Source of the DNA: Prevotellaceae bacterium
GTDB lineage: Bacteria; Bacteroidota; Bacteroidia; Bacteroidales; Bacteroidaceae
Assembly: GCA_030531085.1 (NCBI GenBank)
Contig: JAUNOM010000007.1
Coordinates: forward strand, 25,874 to 89,873
Length of the DNA: 64,000 bases
Direction: 5' to 3'
Of the stretch, positions 24,182-60,735 are shown in pieces (the first letter of the stretch is position 1; the number at the start of each line of letters is the position of its first letter). A program made the position numbers and the translations under genes. The notes under the pieces are model-generated. The model made no database searches and was not told the origin of the DNA. It saw nothing but the letters and a program-made list of their open reading frames with translations.

Positions 24182-24207
24182 TTTTTATCCCGACACCCCC
24201 ATTTTGA

Positions 24208-24647
24208 CAAAATGTTACTTTTTCGGGCTTTTTGGTGACGTTTTGCTTTTTTGAGAATGTCGGCTTCACTTTGCATTCTAGAGGAGAAAAATTCGTTTTC
24301 ATGGTCTTTGGAGAGCGAAAGCATGGAGTTTCGGGGGATTTGAAGGCTATATTTCTGCGAAAAGACGTTGATTTTATTTCTAAATGCCGTCTTTTACAGC
24401 GCTAAAGACGGCATTTGGCTATGAAAAAGCCGTCGTTTGGAAGTCTAAAGGCCGTCTATAGGAATTATTTCGCGGTCTTTTCAAATGACAGGAAACCGCA
24501 ACAACAAGAATATCAACAAATTAATAAAAACGCCCGTAATTGCGCTGTACACGCCCGATGCAAGATAATTTTGAAACGATGGCATTCTCTGCGATTTGGA
24601 AAAATCAAAGTGTCAGAAAAAGAGGCCTTTTCCTGACACTTTGATTT
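24208..24647 (-). repeat. Dispersed hairpin-bounded element, copy 1 (inverted)
   Basis: Read on the minus strand: a left hairpin with 15-bp perfect arms (24633-24647 and 24602-24616, AAATCAAAGTGTCAG), then a conserved block with TTTCAAAATTAT and GTACAGCGCA, then a module with GCCGTC motifs 22 bp apart (24429 and 24451 on plus) and inverted copies AAATGCCGTC, then GCCGACATTC followed by GCAAAACGTCAC and a right hairpin (24235-24245 with 24208-24218, partly wobble-paired). No ORF here is convincing. The other three copies are at 37711, 51896 and 60107. Confidence 0.8.
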
Positions 24648-24720
24648 CGCTGCATTCACCGGAGCGGTGTGTCTGTGTTATTATTCCCAAGGGCTACGCG
24701 CAGGAGCGTCCCCCCTACCC

Positions 24721-37710: not shown

Positions 37711-38135
37711 AACTTACAATCTGTAAGTAAAAAGCCTGTTTTACTTACAATCCGCTTTTTACACCCCCTCTCAGATTCGCGTAATCTGAAATTCAAATCA
37801 TTCCGGCGCGTACAGCGCAGCCACGAGAAAACACGTAACATACTAATGCTCTGATATTTATCATTTTTACCACTTTCAGTGCATATTAAAAAGGGGCTAA
37901 AAGGGGCGCTTTGGGTCTGTAATCAGATAGAGATTACGACACAAACAGATAGAGATTACAACGTAATATGTATCAAATAGCACTGCAATCTCTATCTAAT
38001 CAGGCTCCACAACACACAGAAACGCCGCGGAAAGGACATGAAAGCGGTATGTGTCTCTCTAAAACGCGACCTCAGAACGACTCTTCTGAAAATGCAGACT
38101 GTAAGTAAAACGGACTATTTACTTACAATCTGTAA
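37711..38135 (+). repeat. Dispersed hairpin-bounded element, copy 2 (most diverged)
   Basis: The left hairpin is GTAAGTAAAA (37723-37732) with TTTTACTTAC (37739-37748). Then follow ATTCGCGTAA, ATTCAAATCATTCCGG and CGTACAGCGCA. The central module has CAGATAGAGATTAC at 37924 and 37946 (22 bp apart) and inverted AATCTCTATCT at 37987. The right end has CTCTCTAAAACGC, CGACTCTTCTG and hairpin GTAAGTAAA (38101-38109) with TTTACTTAC (38118-38126). Both end hairpins carry the same sequence, different from the other copies. It occupies a 940-bp gene-free stretch. Confidence 0.8.
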
Positions 38136-38492: not shown

Positions 38493-39656
38493 ATGGACAA
38501 CAGATATATGTTGCGCGGAGTCAGCGCAGCGAAAGAGGATGTGCACAACGCCATTAAAAATATAGACAAAGGCATATTTCCTCAAGCTTTCTGCAAAATA
38601 ATACCGGATATCCTTGGCAACGATCCCGAATACTGCAACATCATGCACGCCGACGGCGCGGGAACGAAGTCAAGTCTGGCGTATATGTACTGGAAAGAGA
38701 CCGGTGATTTGTCTGTCTGGAAAGGCATTGCGCAGGATGCGCTCATCATGAACACAGACGATCTGCTGTGCGTTGGAGCTGTTGACAACATTCTCGTTTC
38801 AAGCACTATCGGCAGGAACAAGATGCTTGTACCCGGCGATGTAATTTCTGCCATCATCAATGGCACCGACGAGCTGCTGGCGGAAATGCGCGATATGGGC
38901 ATAGGCATATACGCCACAGGCGGTGAGACGGCTGATGTGGGTGACTTGACGCGCACCATTATCGTTGATTCCACCGTGACCTGCCGCATGAAGCGCAGCG
39001 ATGTCATAGACAATGCCAACATACGGCCGGGGGATGTCATCGTCGGTCTGGCAAGCTACGGACAGGCTACATACGAGAAGGAATACAATGGCGGCATGGG
39101 CAGCAACGGTCTGACTTCAGCACGTCATGACGTGTTCGCGAAATATTACGCGGAGAAATACCCGGAAAGCTATGACCATGCGGTACCGGAGGAGCTGGTT
39201 TACTCTGGAGGTTACCGCTTTGAGGACGCTGTGGACGGTTCTCCTGTGAACGCTGGAAAGCTGGTGCTGTCGCCAACCCGCACTTACGCTCCTGTCATAA
39301 AGAAGATACTTGACGAGATGCGCAAGGAAATCCATGGCATGGTGCACTGCACCGGTGGAGCGCAGACAAAGGTATTGCACTTCGTAGGCGACAACTGTCA
39401 CGTGGTAAAGGACAATATGTTCCCTGTACCTCCGCTGTTCCGTATAATACATGAGCAGAGCGGAACAGACTGGAAAGAGATGTATAAGGTCTTCAATATG
39501 GGACACCGTATGGAGATATACGTATCGCCTGAACAGGCAGACAGGATCATATCCATCAGCAAGAGCTTCAATATCGACGCACAGATAATAGGACATATAG
39601 AGGAGGGCAGCAAGTCTCTCACCATCAAGAGCGAGTTTGGAGTATTTGAATATTAA
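38493..39656 (+). CDS. purM: Phosphoribosylformylglycinamidine cyclo-ligase (AIR synthase)
   Basis: PurM closes the imidazole ring in purine synthesis. The 387-residue protein is the longer form seen in Bacteroidota. Motifs are MHADGAGTKSSLAY (the usual DGVGTK), MNTDDLLCVGA, GIGIYATGGETADVGDL, PGDVIVGLASYG, GLTSARHDVF, and MVHCTGGAQTKVL. The start is ATG 38493, 31 bp past the -7 box. The 97-bp gap to prfA suggests cotranscription. Confidence 0.93.
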   Translation: MDNRYMLRGVSAAKEDVHNAIKNIDKGIFPQAFCKIIPDILGNDPEYCNIMHADGAGTKSSLAYMYWKETGDLSVWKGIAQDALIMNTDDLLCVGAVDNILVSSTIGRNKMLVPGDVISAIINGTDELLAEMRDMGIGIYATGGETADVGDLTRTIIVDSTVTCRMKRSDVIDNANIRPGDVIVGLASYGQATYEKEYNGGMGSNGLTSARHDVFAKYYAEKYPESYDHAVPEELVYSGGYRFEDAVDGSPVNAGKLVLSPTRTYAPVIKKILDEMRKEIHGMVHCTGGAQTKVLHFVGDNCHVVKDNMFPVPPLFRIIHEQSGTDWKEMYKVFNMGHRMEIYVSPEQADRIISISKSFNIDAQIIGHIEEGSKSLTIKSEFGVFEY

Positions 39657-51343: not shown

Positions 51344-51859
51344 ATGAGAAAGAAAAGCAGAGAGATGGACAGCGCATGGGCACTGGAGGTGATGCACAAT
51401 GCGCCATACATAACAGTAAGTTTCATCCGCCCAGACGGCACGGCATACGGCGTGCCGCTCTCACTGGCCTCAACGGACGATAACACATGGTACTTCCATT
51501 GCGCATTGAAGGGCGACAAACTGGACGCCATAGCGGCGCATCCAGAGGTTTGCCTGTCCGCAGTGTCATACTGCCAGCCTACAGTAGGGCCCAAGGACGG
51601 CAGTTTCACGCTGCAATACAAATCGGCCATAGCATTTGGCAAGGCTACAGAAGTGACCGATGACAAGGAGAAAATCACTGCACTGCGAGCTATATGCGAG
51701 CGTTTCCTACCACAGCATATAGATGCTTTTGACGAAAGCGTGGCACGCAGCCTGCAGCGCACAGCCATAGTGAAAATACAGCTGAGTGAACCACCGACAG
51801 GAAAAAGGAAGGAATATGACAGCAATGGAGACGAAATGAAGCGGTATAGAAAGGATTAG
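51344..51859 (+). CDS. Nim-like pyridoxamine 5'-phosphate oxidase-family protein
   Basis: A 171-residue flavin or pyridoxamine-phosphate-binding split barrel. It follows the layout of nitroimidazole-resistance (Nim) proteins: MRKKSREMD, PYITVSFIRPDGTAYGVPLSLAS, YFHCALKGDKLDAIAAHPEVCLSAV and YKSAIAFGKATEV. Nim proteins have been linked to reduction of 5-nitroimidazoles, but most chromosomal homologues have no known role. It lies 56 bp after the ProX gene. A copy of the dispersed element starts 37 bp after its stop. Confidence 0.82.
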   Translation: MRKKSREMDSAWALEVMHNAPYITVSFIRPDGTAYGVPLSLASTDDNTWYFHCALKGDKLDAIAAHPEVCLSAVSYCQPTVGPKDGSFTLQYKSAIAFGKATEVTDDKEKITALRAICERFLPQHIDAFDESVARSLQRTAIVKIQLSEPPTGKRKEYDSNGDEMKRYRKD

Positions 51860-51895
51860 CAATACCACCTTTATAGCCGCCCAATGGGAATTACC

Positions 51896-52348
51896 AAAAA
51901 TCAAAGTGTCAAAAAAACGGCACTTTTTCTGACACTTTGATTTTTCACACCCTTAAAATACGGCCATCGGATTCACGAAACTATCTCCCGGCTTCGTACA
52001 GACGATTCTCCGCGCATTTCCCTAACACACATTCAGTCAAGACTATACGCTGAGAGCCTGTCCAAAACGGCATTCAATATGGCGCAATATCTATGCTTTT
52101 ACATCGTAATCTGATAGCTTTTACACAGTAATCTCTATCTTTTTACAAGGCAATATGATACTAATTACAGTGCAAAAGCTATCTGTTTGCCGCCCAAAGA
52201 GCTGTTTGCACTCCTGAATGACGCATTCTGTCCCCCAGAAAACGTATCTTTTCAGTATTCCATCTCTCTAAAATGAAAAGTCTGACGACATATCCCAAAA
52301 TATCAAAACGTCACAAAATCTGGCATTTTTCTTACGATTTGATATTTT
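51896..52348 (+). repeat. Dispersed hairpin-bounded element, copy 3
   Basis: The left hairpin has 16-bp perfect arms (51896-51911 with 51930-51945, core AAATCAAAGTGTCA). Inside is a conserved TATCTCCCGG, CGTACAGACGATTCTCCGCG block. The central module has GTAATCTGATAGC (52106) and GTAATCTCTATC (52128), 22 bp apart, and inverted GCAAAAGCTATCTG (52172 region). The right end has TCTCTCTAAAATG, GACGACATATCCC and a degenerate hairpin (52297-52318 with 52326-52348, AAAATATCAAAACGTCAC). No gene is supported in the 664-bp gap. Confidence 0.8.
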
Positions 52349-52523
52349 AGATATTTTCGAGTCACAGCGTAATTTGCAAAAAACAATTTTGAAAATTAGC
52401 ATGAATACAGGATATAACAAACAAATTGCAAATCTCTCACAAATTGTGACAGAACTGCAATGCCTTCCATCAAAAAGATAGGAACCAAATAATACAGTCA
52501 AGCCACCACTAAAATTCCAACCT

Positions 52524-53099
52524 ATGAAGGAACAAATACAACAGTACAAGATTGATGAACAGAGCATGGAGAAAGCCAAGGCCTTGTTTGAAACTGGTGA
52601 CATCAGCACTATAGAAGTCGGTACAGCCAAAGGGTTATGCCAGATACACAAGTATCTGTTTGATGGACTGTATAGCTTTGCAGGACAGGTTCGTACTCTA
52701 AACATTGCCAAAGGTGGTTTCCGTTTTGCAAACTCGCTGTTCTTGGACGCTATTCTTCCTGTGATAGAGAAGATGCCTGAAAACACTTTTGAGGAGATTA
52801 TCGCCAAATATGTGGAGATGAATATAGCCCATCCTTTTATGGAAGGCAACGGACGCTCTACAAGAATATGGCTGGACATGATACTAAAGAAAAGGTTAGG
52901 AAAGGTTATTGACTGGCGTATGGTGGATAAAGACCTTTATCTGCAAGCCATGGAACGCAGTCCAATCAATGATTTGGAACTACGTTTCCTGTTAAAACCG
53001 GCCTTAACAGCGAACATAGATGACAGGGAAGTGATATTCAAAGGAATAGAGCAGTCATATTATTATGAAGGCTATAGCAAGGCGCCCACCAACACTTAA
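52524..53099 (+). CDS. Fic protein, class III
   Basis: A 191-residue single-domain Fic enzyme. It has the flap region [21 protein letters not shown], and the Fic motif [12 protein letters not shown] (residues 103-114). A C-terminal S178-YYY-E182-G183 fits the inhibitory helix of class III Fic proteins, where it blocks ATP binding until oligomeric state changes. It would AMPylate a bacterial target such as gyrase or topoisomerase, by analogy. It stands alone, just after element copy 3, with no antitoxin-like partner gene. It ends 13 bp before the permease gene. Confidence 0.9.
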
Positions 53100-55037: not shown

Positions 55038-55116
55038 TAAATTAATAAATCATACGATATTCATCTATATATAGGAGAATACGCAAAATTTTACAGACAT
55101 TATGTCATATTTAAAC

Positions 55117-55140
55117 AATTTGGCATAAAATTCGTAATAT
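55117..55140 (+). repeat. Shared leader block, copy before the tandem sigma-region-2 gene
   Basis: The block AATTTGGCATAAAATTCGT plus AATAT recurs at 55974-55997 with one change. It lies about 55 bp before the ATG and carries TTTG and an AT-rich region, so it may be a duplicated promoter. Confidence 0.65.
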
Positions 55141-55193
55141 ATTTCGCCCCACAGACATGGAAATAATTTTGTTAACATAAATAATTTAAGCGA

Positions 55194-55865
55194 ATGAGAC
55201 TGAAAAGTACCACAGAGGAACTTGTACAGACAATTCAAAAAGGTGGAAAGGAAGGTGAACGCGCCAAAGAGAAACTCGTCAAGGCTAACCTAAGACTGAT
55301 TGTGCGGATTGCCAAGCGGTATCATCACCAGAGACTGTTGCTGACAGGACTTATTGATGCCGGCACCGACGGACTGATTAAGGCGGCACTGGAGTTTGAC
55401 GTGACTACGGGCTGCAAGTTCATCCCCTTTGCCGAATGGTGGATTAGGCAAAGCATTCTACAGGCCGTCGCGGAGCCAAGAAGCAAGGGGCAGCTGAAGG
55501 TTCTGGAAGGCATTGCAGGCCCAAAAGAGAAGTCACTTGACTATTATCTCGAGAAGATCAGCCGCACTCCACTGATTTCGCTTGAGGAGGAGATTTCGCT
55601 TGCACGTGCTATCCAACAGGGAGGGGCGGCAGGCAAATGCGCCAAGGCCAGGCTCATCACGGCAAACCTCAGATTTGTGGTGTCAGTAGCTAAGCAGTAC
55701 CAGTACCATGAGCTGTCGTTGGCTACCCTTATCGACAGGGGGAACGAAGGATTGGTCAAGGCGGCGCAGCTGTATGACGATACAAGAGGCTTCAAGTTCA
55801 TATCGTATGCTGTATGTTGGATTAGACAAAGCATTATAGAGGCCCTCGATGCACAGTGCGGATAG
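55194..55865 (+). CDS. Tandem sigma-70 region 2 protein lacking regions 3 and 4
   Basis: A 223-residue protein made of two sigma region 2 domains. Residues 8-92 have ERAKEKLVKANLRLIVRIAKRY and FAEWWIRQSILQAVAE. Residues 113-220 have the region 1.2 strand LDYYLEKISRTPLISLEEEI, then TANLRFVVSVAKQYQ, GFKFISYAVCWIRQSIIEAL. There is no region 3, no region 4 and no helix-turn-helix. Both copies have the GG-x-G-x-x-AK insertion also seen in the next gene, so they share an origin. It could bind core polymerase without recruiting -33 sequences: a decoy, a co-sigma or a remnant. The frame is fully open and the start is the ATG at 55194. Two domains with different drift argue against simple decay. Confidence 0.8.
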   Translation: MRLKSTTEELVQTIQKGGKEGERAKEKLVKANLRLIVRIAKRYHHQRLLLTGLIDAGTDGLIKAALEFDVTTGCKFIPFAEWWIRQSILQAVAEPRSKGQLKVLEGIAGPKEKSLDYYLEKISRTPLISLEEEISLARAIQQGGAAGKCAKARLITANLRFVVSVAKQYQYHELSLATLIDRGNEGLVKAAQLYDDTRGFKFISYAVCWIRQSIIEALDAQCG

Positions 55866-55973
55866 CAAAGACGAGAGGGGACTTAGGCATTGGAACAAGA
55901 ACTAAAGGACTATACATTATTATATATGGAGAAATAGATACAAATTCACATCGAATTTATGTCACATTATAAT

Positions 55974-55997
55974 AATTTGGCATAAAATTCGTTATAT
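55974..55997 (+). repeat. Shared leader block, copy before the RpoD-type gene
   Basis: The partner of 55117-55140 (AATTTGGCATAAAATTCGT, then TATAT). The block starts 76 nt before the ATG here and 77 nt before it in the other copy, so the leaders are duplicated at the same spacing. Confidence 0.65.
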
Positions 55998-56049
55998 AAC
56001 TTAGGAGTGAAAGGAAAATAAGATTGTTAGCATAAAGTAAATTAAGAGA

Positions 56050-56922
56050 ATGAGACAGCTTAAGATTCAGAAAAGTATCACAAACCGTAGCAGTGAGGCA
56101 CTTGACAAATATCTTGTGGAGATAGGCCGTGCCCCACTTATTACCATTGATGAGGAGATTGAACTTGCACAGGCCATAAAGAAAGGCGGACCTGCAGGCG
56201 AGCGCGCTAAGGACAAACTGGTCACGGCAAACCTCAGATTTGTGGTGTCAGTAGCTAAGCAGTACCAGCATCAGGGACTCTCACTGACTGACCTTATTGA
56301 CGAGGGCAACATCGGACTGATTAAGGCTGCACAGAAGTTTGACGAGACACGTGGCTTCAAGTTTATCTCGTATGCCGTATGGTGGATTAGGCAAAGCATT
56401 CTTCAGGCCATTGCTGAACAAAGCCGAATAGTACGCCTGCCTCTGAACCAGGTTGGCTCACTGAACAAAATCAACCATGAGATAAACCGCTTTGAGCAGG
56501 AGAACCAGAGACATCCAAGCGTCGGCGAGTTGTCGGAGGCCACCAATCTGGATGAGGAGAAGATTGGACAAAGCCTCATGGCTGACGGGCATCACGTATC
56601 CATCGACGCCCCATTCCAGGACGGTGAGGAGAACTGTATGCTTGACGTTATGGCAAGCGGTGATGACTCACGCACAGACCGCAGCGTGGACCACGAATCC
56701 ATGGCACAGGAGCTGAACGCCGTCTTGAGCAGAGTACTGAAGGAAAGAGAGATAACGATAATCAGGGAGTGCTTCGGCATAGGATGTCACGAGAAGGGAC
56801 TGGAGGAGATTGGCGATGAACTCGGTCTGACACGCGAACGTGTAAGGCAGATAAGGGAGAAGTCTATCACCAAGCTGCGTGACAGTGGCAATGCGAAGAT
56901 TCTGATTAAATATCTGGGATAA
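56050..56922 (+). CDS. RpoD/SigA-type sigma factor (divergent paralogue)
   Basis: A 290-residue sigma-70 without region 1.1, as in Bacteroidota. Parts visible: SEALDKYLVEIGRAPLITIDEE (1.2), TANLRFVVSVAKQYQHQGLSLTDLIDEGN and YAVWWIRQSILQAIAEQSRIVRLP (region 2), region 3 with NQVGSLNKINHEINRFE, and region 4 with LGLTRERVRQIREKSI. An insertion GGPAGERAKDK in region 2.1 and a shift in the region 4 linker (GIGCHEKGLEEIG) depart from the usual housekeeping sequence, so this may be an alternative RpoD copy. It follows the tandem region-2 gene by 184 bp. Confidence 0.9.
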   Translation: MRQLKIQKSITNRSSEALDKYLVEIGRAPLITIDEEIELAQAIKKGGPAGERAKDKLVTANLRFVVSVAKQYQHQGLSLTDLIDEGNIGLIKAAQKFDETRGFKFISYAVWWIRQSILQAIAEQSRIVRLPLNQVGSLNKINHEINRFEQENQRHPSVGELSEATNLDEEKIGQSLMADGHHVSIDAPFQDGEENCMLDVMASGDDSRTDRSVDHESMAQELNAVLSRVLKEREITIIRECFGIGCHEKGLEEIGDELGLTRERVRQIREKSITKLRDSGNAKILIKYLG

Positions 56923-58098: not shown

Positions 58099-58145
58099 CA
58101 AAGTCACAGGCCGGTGGTTATAAGCCAAACCGGCCCGTGACTTTG
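58099..58145 (+). terminator. Terminator after manC
   Basis: Arms CAAAGTCACAGGCCGG (58099-58114) and CCGGCCCGTGACTTTG (58130-58145) with one mismatch, then CTTTTTA. Confidence 0.85.
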
Positions 58146-58178
58146 CTTTTTATATTAATCACTTATCCCAACCTTACA

Positions 58179-60068
58179 ATGACTAAAACCTTAATCTTAA
58201 TCCTAACATCATTCTCAATGTGCATGGCAGCCTGCGGAAAGCCAAAGGCCGCTGTAAACCAGAGCGACAGCTCCATCAGCCAACGCGACAATATCATCAA
58301 TCAGCGCGACAGTATCATTACAAATCCAGAGGCCATCATCAGCCAGAGCGACAACTCCATTACATTTACAGTAGATGGAGAGCTACCGGCACCGCAAAAG
58401 GAGATATTGAGCGGAAGCGGAGCGGATATGGAGAAGTATATTGTCTACAGCAGCAAGACATCCAACAAGAAGTCACCCACCTTAGCCTCCAGTTTCCGCA
58501 AAGACAAATTTAGTCCAATGGGGACAGCGGTGTTCTTCAAAGCATTAGTCACAGCCTACGCGGACCACCGCCCTATAGTGCTGTCGCCGGACATGATATG
58601 GCTGCTGATAAGCCAGGGAGTAAGCCATTACATCAATGAGAATCCGGAGGCCATGCGCGACAAGCTCGTATCGCACACGGGCAAGCAGCTCCTCACCGTG
58701 CTGTCACCGTGCGATGTATATTCACACAAGGTACGCTGGGACGAGATTGTAAAAGACTTTCATGCACAGATTGCCGCCAACACGAAGGGAGACTTCGCCA
58801 AGACAATGGTGGCCGACTTCAGCACCACGGGCATAGTGGAGCGGACGGTATCCGAGATGACACTGATGAGCGCCGTCAAGTCCTATTTTGACTTCCTTGT
58901 GTTATATATTTACTGCGGCATACCCTACATAACACTGGAGGGGACCTCTGCCGACTGGGAGAGCATACTGAACCGCACCAGGGCACTGGAACAATACGGG
59001 ATGGGCTGGTGGACGGCGGATCTCATTCCAATACTCAATGAGTTTGTCAACGCCTCAAAGGGAAGCATCAACCAGGCATTCTGGAAGAGCATAGTAAAGA
59101 AACAGCGAGTAGATGAATTCGACGGCGGAGGCTGTTCCATGGAGGAGCCCACCATGTTGGACGGATGGTTCCTCACGCTCATGCCCTTCTCTGAGTCAGG
59201 ACGCACTCCCAAAGAGGTCATTTACAGTTACGATAAGATCATTCCGCAGATGGTCACTGCCGATTTTGTCTATCAGATGCAGGACAGACAAGGCAATGTC
59301 ATCAAGAGCGTGCCCATGGAGATGTGGGCAGGCTTCGTTGGCGTGGACGTTAACCCAAAAGACGGGGCCATACGTCCAAAGATGGGATGGCTGGTAAGGG
59401 AAAGAGAGAATGAGAAAGATAAGCTCGAGATGCTGATATCAAGAGCTGGAGAGGAAGATCTGATTGTAAGGGAAATACCTGACGTATTGCAGAAAGTGGA
59501 TTATCTGCCCGCGCTGAACTTTGAATTTCAAGACAAAGTAATCCTGCCGAAATGGATAGGCAACGTGAAAATAGACAAGATGATATTCAAGGGCAAGTTC
59601 ACAAACGCATACTTTGACAGCGTGAAAGCGCTGTTCCCCGGCCGCACAGTAAAGAATTACGACAACATCAGGATAGCAGTAACCTCTGTCAAATCCTTTG
59701 CCCCTTCTGATTACATATACAACAACATTACAGAAGGAATCAATGAATGCAAGTTCCCGAACGGAAACTGGGGAATGATGAAATTCATCACAGAAAACAG
59801 CCGCCTCAAGGGCAGAAAGTTTAAGAGGAAAAACCCTGACGACGATTTTGACAGAAGCACAGACGTGAAGTTCGTTGTAGAGAAAGACGGCTCCATAAGC
59901 AATCTTAAAATCAAGTCAAGAAAAGGGAACAAGGCGGTCGAAGCGGAACTATACCGTATTTTCAAAATCATGCCTAAATGGAAACCGGCCACCAGAAACG
60001 GCAAACCCGTGCGTATGCGCCAGTGGGAGAGCATTGAAGACATCTACCTGTATGCTAAAGAAGGGTAA
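58179..60068 (+). CDS. DUF4419 lipoprotein with TonB-C-like end and heptad repeats
   Basis: About 629 residues. The ATG at 58179 gives a signal with lipobox MAAC, so it is a lipoprotein; the in-frame start at 58137 adds extra residues lacking match. Residues 28-62 are five 7-residue units (QSDSSIS, QRDNIIN, QRDSIIT, NPEAIIS, QSDNSIT). The main part matches DUF4419: FFKALVTAYADHRPIVLSPD, IWLLISQGVSHYIN, YITLEGTSADWESI, DFVYQMQ and WAGFVGVD. The end (KFVVEKDGSISNLKIKSR, MPKWKPATRNGKPV) resembles a TonB C-terminal domain. The function of DUF4419 is unknown. Confidence 0.88.
   Translation: MTKTLILILTSFSMCMAACGKPKAAVNQSDSSISQRDNIINQRDSIITNPEAIISQSDNSITFTVDGELPAPQKEILSGSGADMEKYIVYSSKTSNKKSPTLASSFRKDKFSPMGTAVFFKALVTAYADHRPIVLSPDMIWLLISQGVSHYINENPEAMRDKLVSHTGKQLLTVLSPCDVYSHKVRWDEIVKDFHAQIAANTKGDFAKTMVADFSTTGIVERTVSEMTLMSAVKSYFDFLVLYIYCGIPYITLEGTSADWESILNRTRALEQYGMGWWTADLIPILNEFVNASKGSINQAFWKSIVKKQRVDEFDGGGCSMEEPTMLDGWFLTLMPFSESGRTPKEVIYSYDKIIPQMVTADFVYQMQDRQGNVIKSVPMEMWAGFVGVDVNPKDGAIRPKMGWLVRERENEKDKLEMLISRAGEEDLIVREIPDVLQKVDYLPALNFEFQDKVILPKWIGNVKIDKMIFKGKFTNAYFDSVKALFPGRTVKNYDNIRIAVTSVKSFAPSDYIYNNITEGINECKFPNGNWGMMKFITENSRLKGRKFKRKNPDDDFDRSTDVKFVVEKDGSISNLKIKSRKGNKAVEAELYRIFKIMPKWKPATRNGKPVRMRQWESIEDIYLYAKEG
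58260..58364 (+). repeat. Five 21-bp units encoding heptads
   Basis: Units of seven residues just after the lipid anchor. Units 2 and 3 are the closest (QRDNIIN, QRDSIIT). They probably form a flexible or coiled linker at the membrane. Confidence 0.75.
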
Positions 60069-60106: not shown

Positions 60107-60691
60107 AAAATCAAAGTGTCACAAAAACGCCCCTTTTTGTGACACTTTGATTTTTCCAACCCTCTGACATTCGCGTATTTCAAAATTATTTCCCGACGGT
60201 CCTGTACAGCGCATTCTCCGCAGCCATGCACAAAGCACAATCTCCCACGGAACATCCCCAGACAATTTTCCACGATAGAAAAATCTCTAAAGACCATCCC
60301 CACGAAAAAATCTAACGTCCGCAGAAAAAAATCTAACGTCCGCAGGAAAAAATCCACGATAGATTTTCTCCCAAATAACACAGATTTTGAAGAAAACACC
60401 GCACACAGGGAACGGAAAGGCCGCCTTTACCCCATTCTTTTACGCTGGAAAAATCAACAAAAGAGACGTTTCTCATCGTTTTCTGACACATCTTTTAGCC
60501 ACAAACAGGCATAAATGGAAACATTTCCCGCACCCTATCATCATAAAATAAGCACAAAACTACAGGATACAGCATCTTCTCACACATTCAGAATGTCATA
60601 AAACAGCCTTTCTCACTCTAAAACGCATACTTGAGCCGACATTCCCGAAAAAGCAAAACGTCACAAAAATAGCCATTTTTGTGACGTTTTG
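60107..60691 (+). repeat. Dispersed hairpin-bounded element, copy 4 (longest)
   Basis: The left hairpin has 21-bp perfect arms (60107-60127 with 60134-60154) around CGCCCC. Then come CTCTGACATTCGCG, TTTCAAAATTATTTCCCG and GTACAGCGCATTCTCCGC. The central module has TCTAACGTCCGCAG at 60311 and 60332 (21 bp apart) between two CCACGATAG words. The right end has CTCACTCTAAAACGC, GCCGACATTCCCG and a hairpin with 17-bp perfect arms (60654-60670 with 60675-60691, loop AGCC). It fills a 667-bp gap with no supported gene. Confidence 0.85.
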
Positions 60692-60735
60692 TCAAATTTA
60701 CCTTTGCGGAGATACGGCCAGACAGTGCCTCATCC

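Follow-up and report, generated by a model that had tools for sequence, protein, structure and literature searches.

A dispersed, hairpin-bounded non-coding repeat of rumen Prevotella carries a palindromic array in 22-bp register with a largely species-specific core

The window, the whole 64,000-nucleotide stretch of DNA analysed here, belongs to a rumen Prevotella draft genome of 2.37 Mb in 61 contigs that is 81% complete (the source genome). On its plus strand, alignment and repeat finding delimit a non-coding element at positions 60107 to 60697 (copy 4), a long form with a 21-bp central module. Just upstream, at 58137-60068, lies a gene whose product combines DUF4419 and TonB C-terminal domains. 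Repeat finding resolves copy 4 into a left hairpin (60107-60154), a conserved leader core running from TTTCAAAATTAT to GTACAGCGCA (60178-60213), a central tandem module (60297-60338) made of 21-bp units at 60297-60317 and 60318-60338, a tail with CTCTAAAACGC and GCCGACATTC that extends into the inner arm of the right hairpin (60616-60669), and the right hairpin itself (60648-60691), all on the plus strand. The same 21-bp module is also present in L002, another copy in the source genome.

The first-pass annotation of this DNA had described four copies of one element sharing a common order of blocks. End-to-end alignment recovers all four where it had placed them, and the block order, including that of the inverted copy, is confirmed by alignment and by repeat cross-matches, which link the window copies in both direct and inverted orientation. 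Copy 1, delimited by reading and alignment, occupies 24201-24648 on the minus strand; repeat finding assigns to it a left hairpin at 24602-24647 (arms 24602-24622 and 24627-24647), a central module of another type with AAATGCCGTCTTT words in inverted orientation at 24355-24443, and a tail (CTCTAGAATGC, GCCGACATTC) with the inner arm of the right hairpin at 24230-24283, all likewise on the minus strand. Copy 2, aligned at 37711-38135 on the plus strand upstream of a purM-like gene at 38493, has divergent hairpin letters, with a left hairpin of the GTAAGTAA type at 37721-37752 and a right hairpin at 38099-38130 (repeat finding). A unit pattern scan places its plus-strand array of four units in 22-bp register at 37919-38003, the units starting at 37919 (+), 37941 (+), 37963 (-), and 37985 (-) with 0, 1, 2, and 2 mismatches, and the tail word CTCTCTAAAACGC is read at 38055-38067. 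Copy 3 (51896-52348, plus strand; reading and alignment) has a left hairpin at 51896-51945 and a right hairpin at 52304-52347 by repeat finding, a tail word CTCTCTAAAATG read at 52264-52275, and, from the unit scan, an array of five units in exact 22-bp register at 52084-52190. These units start at 52084 (-), 52106 (+), 52128 (-), 52150 (+), and 52172 (-), with 1, 0, 0, 1, and 0 mismatches.

Not every block named as common is shared throughout. An ATTCGCG word is found in two of the four copies (60107 and 37711) and not in the other two. Palindromic ends occur in all four, but the 37711 copy has the GTAAGTAA type at both ends rather than GTGTCA/TGACAC. Similarly, the central repeat module is a 22-bp tandem array in the copies at 37711 and 51896, whereas those at 60107 (21-bp) and 24208 (a third type) carry different modules, so that the 22-bp array is not obligatory. 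Elsewhere in the window, 51344-51859 encodes a pyridoxamine-oxidase-like protein whose similarity to Nim nitroimidazole reductases is weak and falls far under the curated cut-offs. At 55059-56423 there are three copies of a tandem repeat of ~263 to 300 nt, 65 to 75% alike, with an 83-nt repeat pair (71%) nearby, and these repeats overlap the open reading frames (ORFs) at 55194 and 56050.

As the annotation had envisaged, a covariance model extends the family well beyond the window and into related genomes, and the absence of outside copies that it had named as a refutation was not borne out. The leader model R2, built on 28 copies from three genomes, finds at least 50 full-length leader places at 47.8 bits or more in the source genome, and the four window copies are part of a dispersed non-coding repeat family with at least 50 copies in this draft; counts of source copies given below use 49 of 50, C37:36, at a contig end, being left out. 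In a BLAST search of the source genome, the left 114 bp gave 79 matches at ~40 separate places, many of which match on both strands because the end of the element is palindromic. The plan of the element, ~430 bp long, is a left hairpin, a conserved leader containing TTTCAAAATTAT and GTACAGCGCA, a variable central tandem array, a conserved tail with a CTCTAAAACGC-type word and GCCGACATTC, and a right hairpin. The palindromic ends are near-perfect, as in the 21-bp arms of copy 4 (60107-60127 and 60134-60154, 100%) and the 22-bp arms at the left end of copy 3 (51896-51917 and 51924-51945, 95%). The inner hairpin arms, TGACACTTTGATTTTTC on the left and TGACGTTTTGCTTTTTC on the right when read inward, are alike in 14 of 17 bases and constitute terminal inverted repeats; right ends differ from copy to copy, and outer arms are decayed in some copies.

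The tail word lies mostly at element position 341-345 or 363-365, with single cases at 300 and 354, so that its position shifts mostly in steps of 21 to 22 bp; it lies at 445 and 507 in copies with the other central module. The annotation had seen no transposase or ORF in any copy. ORFs overlapping the window copies are only mechanical, and the longest ORF inside 48 source copies has a median of 52 aa, with 60 aa or more in 12 of 48 and a maximum of 141, against a median of 48, 60 aa or more in 11 of 48, and a maximum of 87 in base-shuffled copies. Small, present in many copies, intergenic, and without an internal transposase gene, the element shares these traits with a miniature inverted-repeat transposable element (MITE) in the wide sense. 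A subfamily found in the genomes G001 (for example, L060, L062, and L066) and G100 (L071) has an extra hairpin with a T-rich tail (AAGTGCCGTCAGA..TCCGACGGCACTTTT) between the array and the right end, which was not seen among the source-genome copies examined.

The 22-bp array forms the centre of most copies, and its unit is GYAA-N11-TTRC, a 19-bp imperfect palindrome that, with three further bases, gives the 22-bp register. Within array regions the pattern was counted 81 times in 49 source copies (six copies have none), 133 times in 41 copies of G001 (Prevotella sp. RGIG1502), and 74 times in 21 copies of its sister species G100 (Prevotella sp. Tb.RUG.131); the flanks contain 2, 2, and 3 occurrences in 48, 38, and 21 kb, respectively. 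Successive units are spaced by 22 bp in 28 of 38 cases in the source genome, 63 of 92 in G001, and 38 of 53 in G100, and 181 of 183 spacings are multiples of 11. A measure of self-similarity of the central region that uses no pattern peaks at a lag of 22 in all four sets (z of 9.4, 14.8, 12.9, and 14.0). At 29 loci from 24 further genomes, found by the leader, 33 lags were compared, of which 22 came out best in 19 loci, 21 or 23 in six, and some other lag in four; L113 and L128 appear to be counterparts in two species, so the two are not fully independent. This period test left out five shorter loci in which the element was missed (L102, L107, L109, L123, and L129), two that are the same places as earlier loci (L104 and L112), and L117, a hairpin without a leader.

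The letters at the centre of the unit are largely specific to the species. With strands merged, the central five bases read CTATC in 66 of 81 source units. Among the 74 units of G100, CTATC accounts for 28, CATAC for 10, and GGCAC for 9, and among the 133 of G001 the commonest readings include GGCCC (22), GCACC (17), AGGCC (10), and AGTGC (10), with CTATC in 5. We compared nine copy pairs that occupy matching sites in G100 and G001, the match resting mostly on one flank. Similarity is lower in the array than in the leader for seven of the nine pairs and equal or higher for the other two (L080/L051 and L153/L147); summed over all nine, 229 of 280 arm bases are identical and 112 of 252 core bases. 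In the clearest pair (L089/L060), the upstream flank is 99.2% identical over 400 bp and 96.5% over 1,500 bp, the leader is 93.6% and the tail 82.7% identical, and 22 of 30 arm bases and 11 of 27 core bases agree. The comparison of arms with cores indicates that in these pairs register and arms largely stay in place, with core letters exchanged faster than the leader and the coding flank. Sister species thus show replacement of the array core at corresponding loci, in 7 of 9 pairs.

The array is also found outside the family. The source genome contains 165 instances of the source-type unit including its core, and none of a backward control. The first 100 of these 165 units form 58 clusters, 23 in listed family copies and 35 outside them; 6 of the 35, being within 300 bp of a contig start, may represent truncated elements, and C8 and C24 begin with the same units. 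By alignment, ten loci, nine in the source genome and one in G100 (L228), make up a second element family with AAATGTTAAAGTTTCCTTA before the array and mostly ATTTTAACACGTTAGAATGAGTTTTCT after it; L277, L280, L285, and L275 are examples from the source genome. Other loci, when viewed, show the array on its own, about three to six units long and in some cases preceded by a TAACTTGTTGAAA-type word (in the source genome, L254, L264, L267, L269, L279, L281, L283, L286 to L290, L294, and L295), and some bare arrays adjoin low-complexity strings such as GTTGTTTAGTTGTTTGG or AACTAATAACTCATCACTC. With the generic pattern, CTATC is the core in 12 of 17 second-family units (10 source loci) and in 44 of 69 at the remaining 21 loci, mostly at 22 bp; these loci were found with the core, so that the sharing is the result and not its percentage. 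In non-randomly chosen stretches of the sister species, with overlaps counted, 108 kb of G100 contained 4 arrays outside the family, with CTATC in 11 of 13 cores, and 186 kb of G001 contained none. These observations suggest that the array may move between element families as a cassette.

Across genomes, the element plan recurs in other Prevotella species and at one locus of another genus. An earlier model (R1) matched 4 of 100 Prevotella genomes, source included. Model R2 matched 36 of 398 at an E value of 0.001 or less, source included (17 of 175 among those of good quality), and 10 of 301 in a sample of the family, three of them in the genus Prevotella, again including the source; these large surveys are lower bounds, because filters were strict and few candidates were scored per genome, and weak single R2 matches may be due to chance. 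Of six other-genus loci viewed (L218 to L222 and L224), only L218 has the full plan. A loose leader pattern found three stretches from two carriers among genome contigs, a first stricter pattern found none, and the leader pattern had no match in viral contigs. Further, copy 4 had no match in phage or plasmid collections, and for 51344-53096 the plasmid matches fall at the Fic gene end of the query, among the 20 of 778 records listed.

Closely similar copies lie in dissimilar surroundings. In the source genome, L006 and L008 are 94.3% identical and L024 and L026 are 94.0% identical, and in G001 L049 and L052 are 90.5% identical, and the flanks of each pair are no more alike than unrelated DNA. 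The closest G001 copies, L040, L047, and L050 (up to 95.8%, for L050/L047), have ~40 bp of upstream flank in common and differ further out, so that part of that cluster may be segmental duplication; their flank pattern suggests recombination or segmental duplication around the element. In a tree of 111 leaders, which rests on few columns and whose bootstrap is not settled, the 49 source copies form nearly one group (2 label changes needed), and G001 and G100 copies interleave as ortholog pairs alongside a G001-only cluster. At three G001 insertions examined, G100 is without the element beside the matching gene (flanks 76%, 93%, and 72% alike); the two genomes differ beyond that gene, so that none of the three is a clean empty site from which a target duplication might be read. 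Of the occupied and empty sites that had been anticipated, absence beside a matching gene of another species was thus found and a clean empty site was not. The elements L030 (source) and L077 (G100) follow the same gene in opposite orientation, and no target-site duplication was seen by eye between the closest copy pairs. Since no target-site duplication or two-flank empty site was found, nor any transposase in genome searches that covered the Y1 and Y2 families, movement is deduced from the copies, among which identity of up to 94% in unrelated flanks and occupancy that differs between species point to non-autonomous mobility. Together with the lineage clusters, they lend good support to the proposal of the first-pass annotation that the element is a non-autonomous mobile one, and it appears to behave as such a repeat.

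The genes beside the copies are of mixed kinds. The orientations of the two neighbours of 40 source copies are about evenly distributed (++, 10; +-, 10; --, 10; -+, 9; one copy has no right neighbour). Gene ends facing a copy lie at a median distance of 53 bp (n = 39) and gene starts at 186 bp (n = 26), as judged from crude calls of ORFs of at least 100 aa, a few of which are spurious. The 95 flanking ORFs match 131 families; among the best 25 of these 131, none matches more than two ORFs and none is a transposase. We also considered a conserved role upstream of purM, where the element lies in the source genome, G001, and G100, and rejected it: 28 of 30 purM loci, taken from 111 genomes with a match among 120 searched, have no leader match.

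By plan, the element appears closest to the BrickBuilt elements of Porphyromonas and the BOX elements of streptococci. Porphyromonas gingivalis belongs to the Bacteroidales. Its BrickBuilt MITE has a leader, an array of 23-nt tandem repeats of variable length, and a tail, and its 19 copies are always intergenic and without a transposase (PMC4596501). The Prevotella element is likewise intergenic and non-coding, with a leader, a tandem repeat, and a tail. BrickBuilt repeats, as that text presents them, are direct and have no spacer, whereas the Prevotella units are palindromic, in both orientations, and in 22-bp register; BrickBuilt has IS5-type ends (GAGACC..), and GAGACC or GGTCTC lies near the end in 1 of 49 source copies; and the Prevotella array, unlike the one described there, is also found within elements of different kinds. 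The BOX elements of Streptococcus pneumoniae and S. suis are composed of boxA, a variable boxB, and boxC, and two BOX families of S. suis with different ends enclose the same boxB modules (PMC3049150). They resemble the Prevotella element in this A-Bn-C plan with a variable number of central modules and in arrays common to families with different ends. They differ in belonging to another phylum and in having ends of ~50 nt that resemble ISSpn2, and a genome-wide replacement of the core of the central module is not reported for BOX in the part of the source available (PMC3049150).

REP palindromes, also small, extragenic, and present in many copies, are described as 20 to 40 bp long with a GTAG or CGTC tag (PMC3733652). 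Within 8 bp of the 81 source units, by contrast, GTAG occurs 0 times, CGTC 0 times, CTAC once, and GACG 0 times; the 19-bp units lie within an element of 430 bp, and the source draft (81% complete) yielded no RAYT. REP units alternate in orientation in BIMEs, a further point of likeness. In eukaryotes, the non-autonomous Helentrons/DINE-1 elements have conserved blocks around a central minisatellite and a terminal hairpin; with a Y2 search that gave nothing in genomes or in controls, their likeness to the Prevotella element would be one of analogy only. In the openly licensed literature, including the available parts of PMC8040213, PMC10969869, PMC12306157, PMC5771137, and PMC3733652, we found no description of the Prevotella element, although one may exist elsewhere. 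What is new is the palindromic array in 22-bp register, the plan of leader, array, and tail being already known from BrickBuilt and BOX.

We consider it probable that the element is a non-autonomous, non-coding mobile repeat of Prevotella whose array would be a platform with several sites for a DNA-binding protein and a cassette shared among repeat families. A plain decaying MITE with an unconstrained minisatellite, in which core differences reflect drift and slippage, would be a rival account. PMC4596501 presents BrickBuilt, which is similar in plan, as a minisatellite-bearing MITE, the decay of the outer hairpin arms is as this account would have it, and two of the nine pairs show no faster change in the array. 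Against it, the strict 22-bp register and the arms are kept while cores are replaced genome-wide, the same core is found in contexts with different ends, and the period is kept in 19 of 29 other-genome loci; we regard this account as unlikely. The first-pass annotation had also raised a large structured RNA, which in the form of a transcribed regulatory family with hairpins as terminators we judge very improbable. The ends of copy 4 can be read as minus-strand terminators, though 2 against 1.0 (SD, 1.1) in shuffles is no excess, and the array region has a mean fold z of -3.15 (30 copies). Further, PMC8040213 describes palindromic candidate RNAs restricted to Bacteroidetes (HMP2_1032 and HMP2_1065), those near tonB and ruvA being predicted as terminators, a likeness by description only. 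However, comparison with Rfam yields no named RNA in the window, nor any match at the gathering score there or at 7 further loci, and RNAalifold on 22 aligned copies keeps only the two terminal hairpins (24 pairs). Leader (z, -0.96) and tail (z, 0.15) are no more foldable than the flank (z, -1.02), the neighbour genes are mixed with their four orientations about equally common, and fold scores for the interior of 30 copies are similar for the two strands (z of -3.04 and -2.69), which argues against an RNA-specific role.

The remaining rival is an element of the IS200/IS605 or REP type, whose terminal hairpins a Y1 (HUH) transposase or RAYT, acting in trans, would cut out in single-stranded form. 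Consistent with this, there are hairpins at both ends, the size is small, and no target duplication is obvious; RAYT-like proteins, a label that reads a weak Pfam Y1_Tnp match, are present in G001, G096, G176 (326 aa, MPDHLHMIV), and G100 (336 aa, MPDHWHGVI), and one element copy of G176 adjoins a RAYT-like gene. Yet the source draft has at least 50 copies and no Y1 domain at an E value of 0.001 or less, and only 7 of 12 other carriers have a Y1 domain, leaving 5 without, an absence that is not proof, as drafts are incomplete (the source, 81%). The RAYT-like genes of G001 and G176, moreover, have different downstream repeats of their own. We hold this reading, which the annotation had raised as one kind of mobile element, to be distinctly unlikely. 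An IS91-type Y2 transposase was found in 0 of 13 genomes, but the controls likewise gave 0 of 14. In G001 and G176 the repeat that follows the RAYT-like gene is built around GGCGAAACCACTTGGAACAGT (among L181, L182, and L179).

For the reading we prefer, that of a mobile repeat with a shared platform array, palindromic units, fixed helical phase, and freer spacer letters suggest that the array is best read as a set of sites in double-stranded DNA. The element would be moved in trans by an enzyme that probably recognises the hairpin ends, with insertion between genes. The array would be a row of putative sites for a dimeric DNA-binding protein, lying on the same face of the helix and bound cooperatively, and such a protein may be used by the mobilising machinery or by the host. 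Cores that are largely uniform within a genome call for a homogenising force; recombination between arrays, or selection via the binding protein, may keep the unit centre largely uniform in each genome. More speculatively, a rule like that of tyrosine recombinases, in which arms are bound and a matching overlap is required, could also give cores that are free but uniform. A bolder version, which we offer tentatively and think unlikely, is that the 22-bp array is itself a recognition platform, selfish or used by the host, that several unrelated Prevotella repeat families have captured. Its cores would be rewritten genome-wide, in step and at fixed loci, by a protein that acts in trans and evolves fast or by a recombinase that requires matching cores. 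If true, the array as cassette and platform would be a bacterial counterpart of fast-evolving pairs of satellites and binding proteins.

Dispersed bacterial repeats are usually taken for passive debris. Kept spacing and arms with replaced cores, together with the presence of one array in more than one kind of element, make the Prevotella element a concrete and testable bacterial example of concerted evolution in trans, and its array offers a bait for the protein that mobilises or uses Prevotella repeats. The element would also give an annotation to some of the intergenic sequence that is unexplained in rumen Prevotella.
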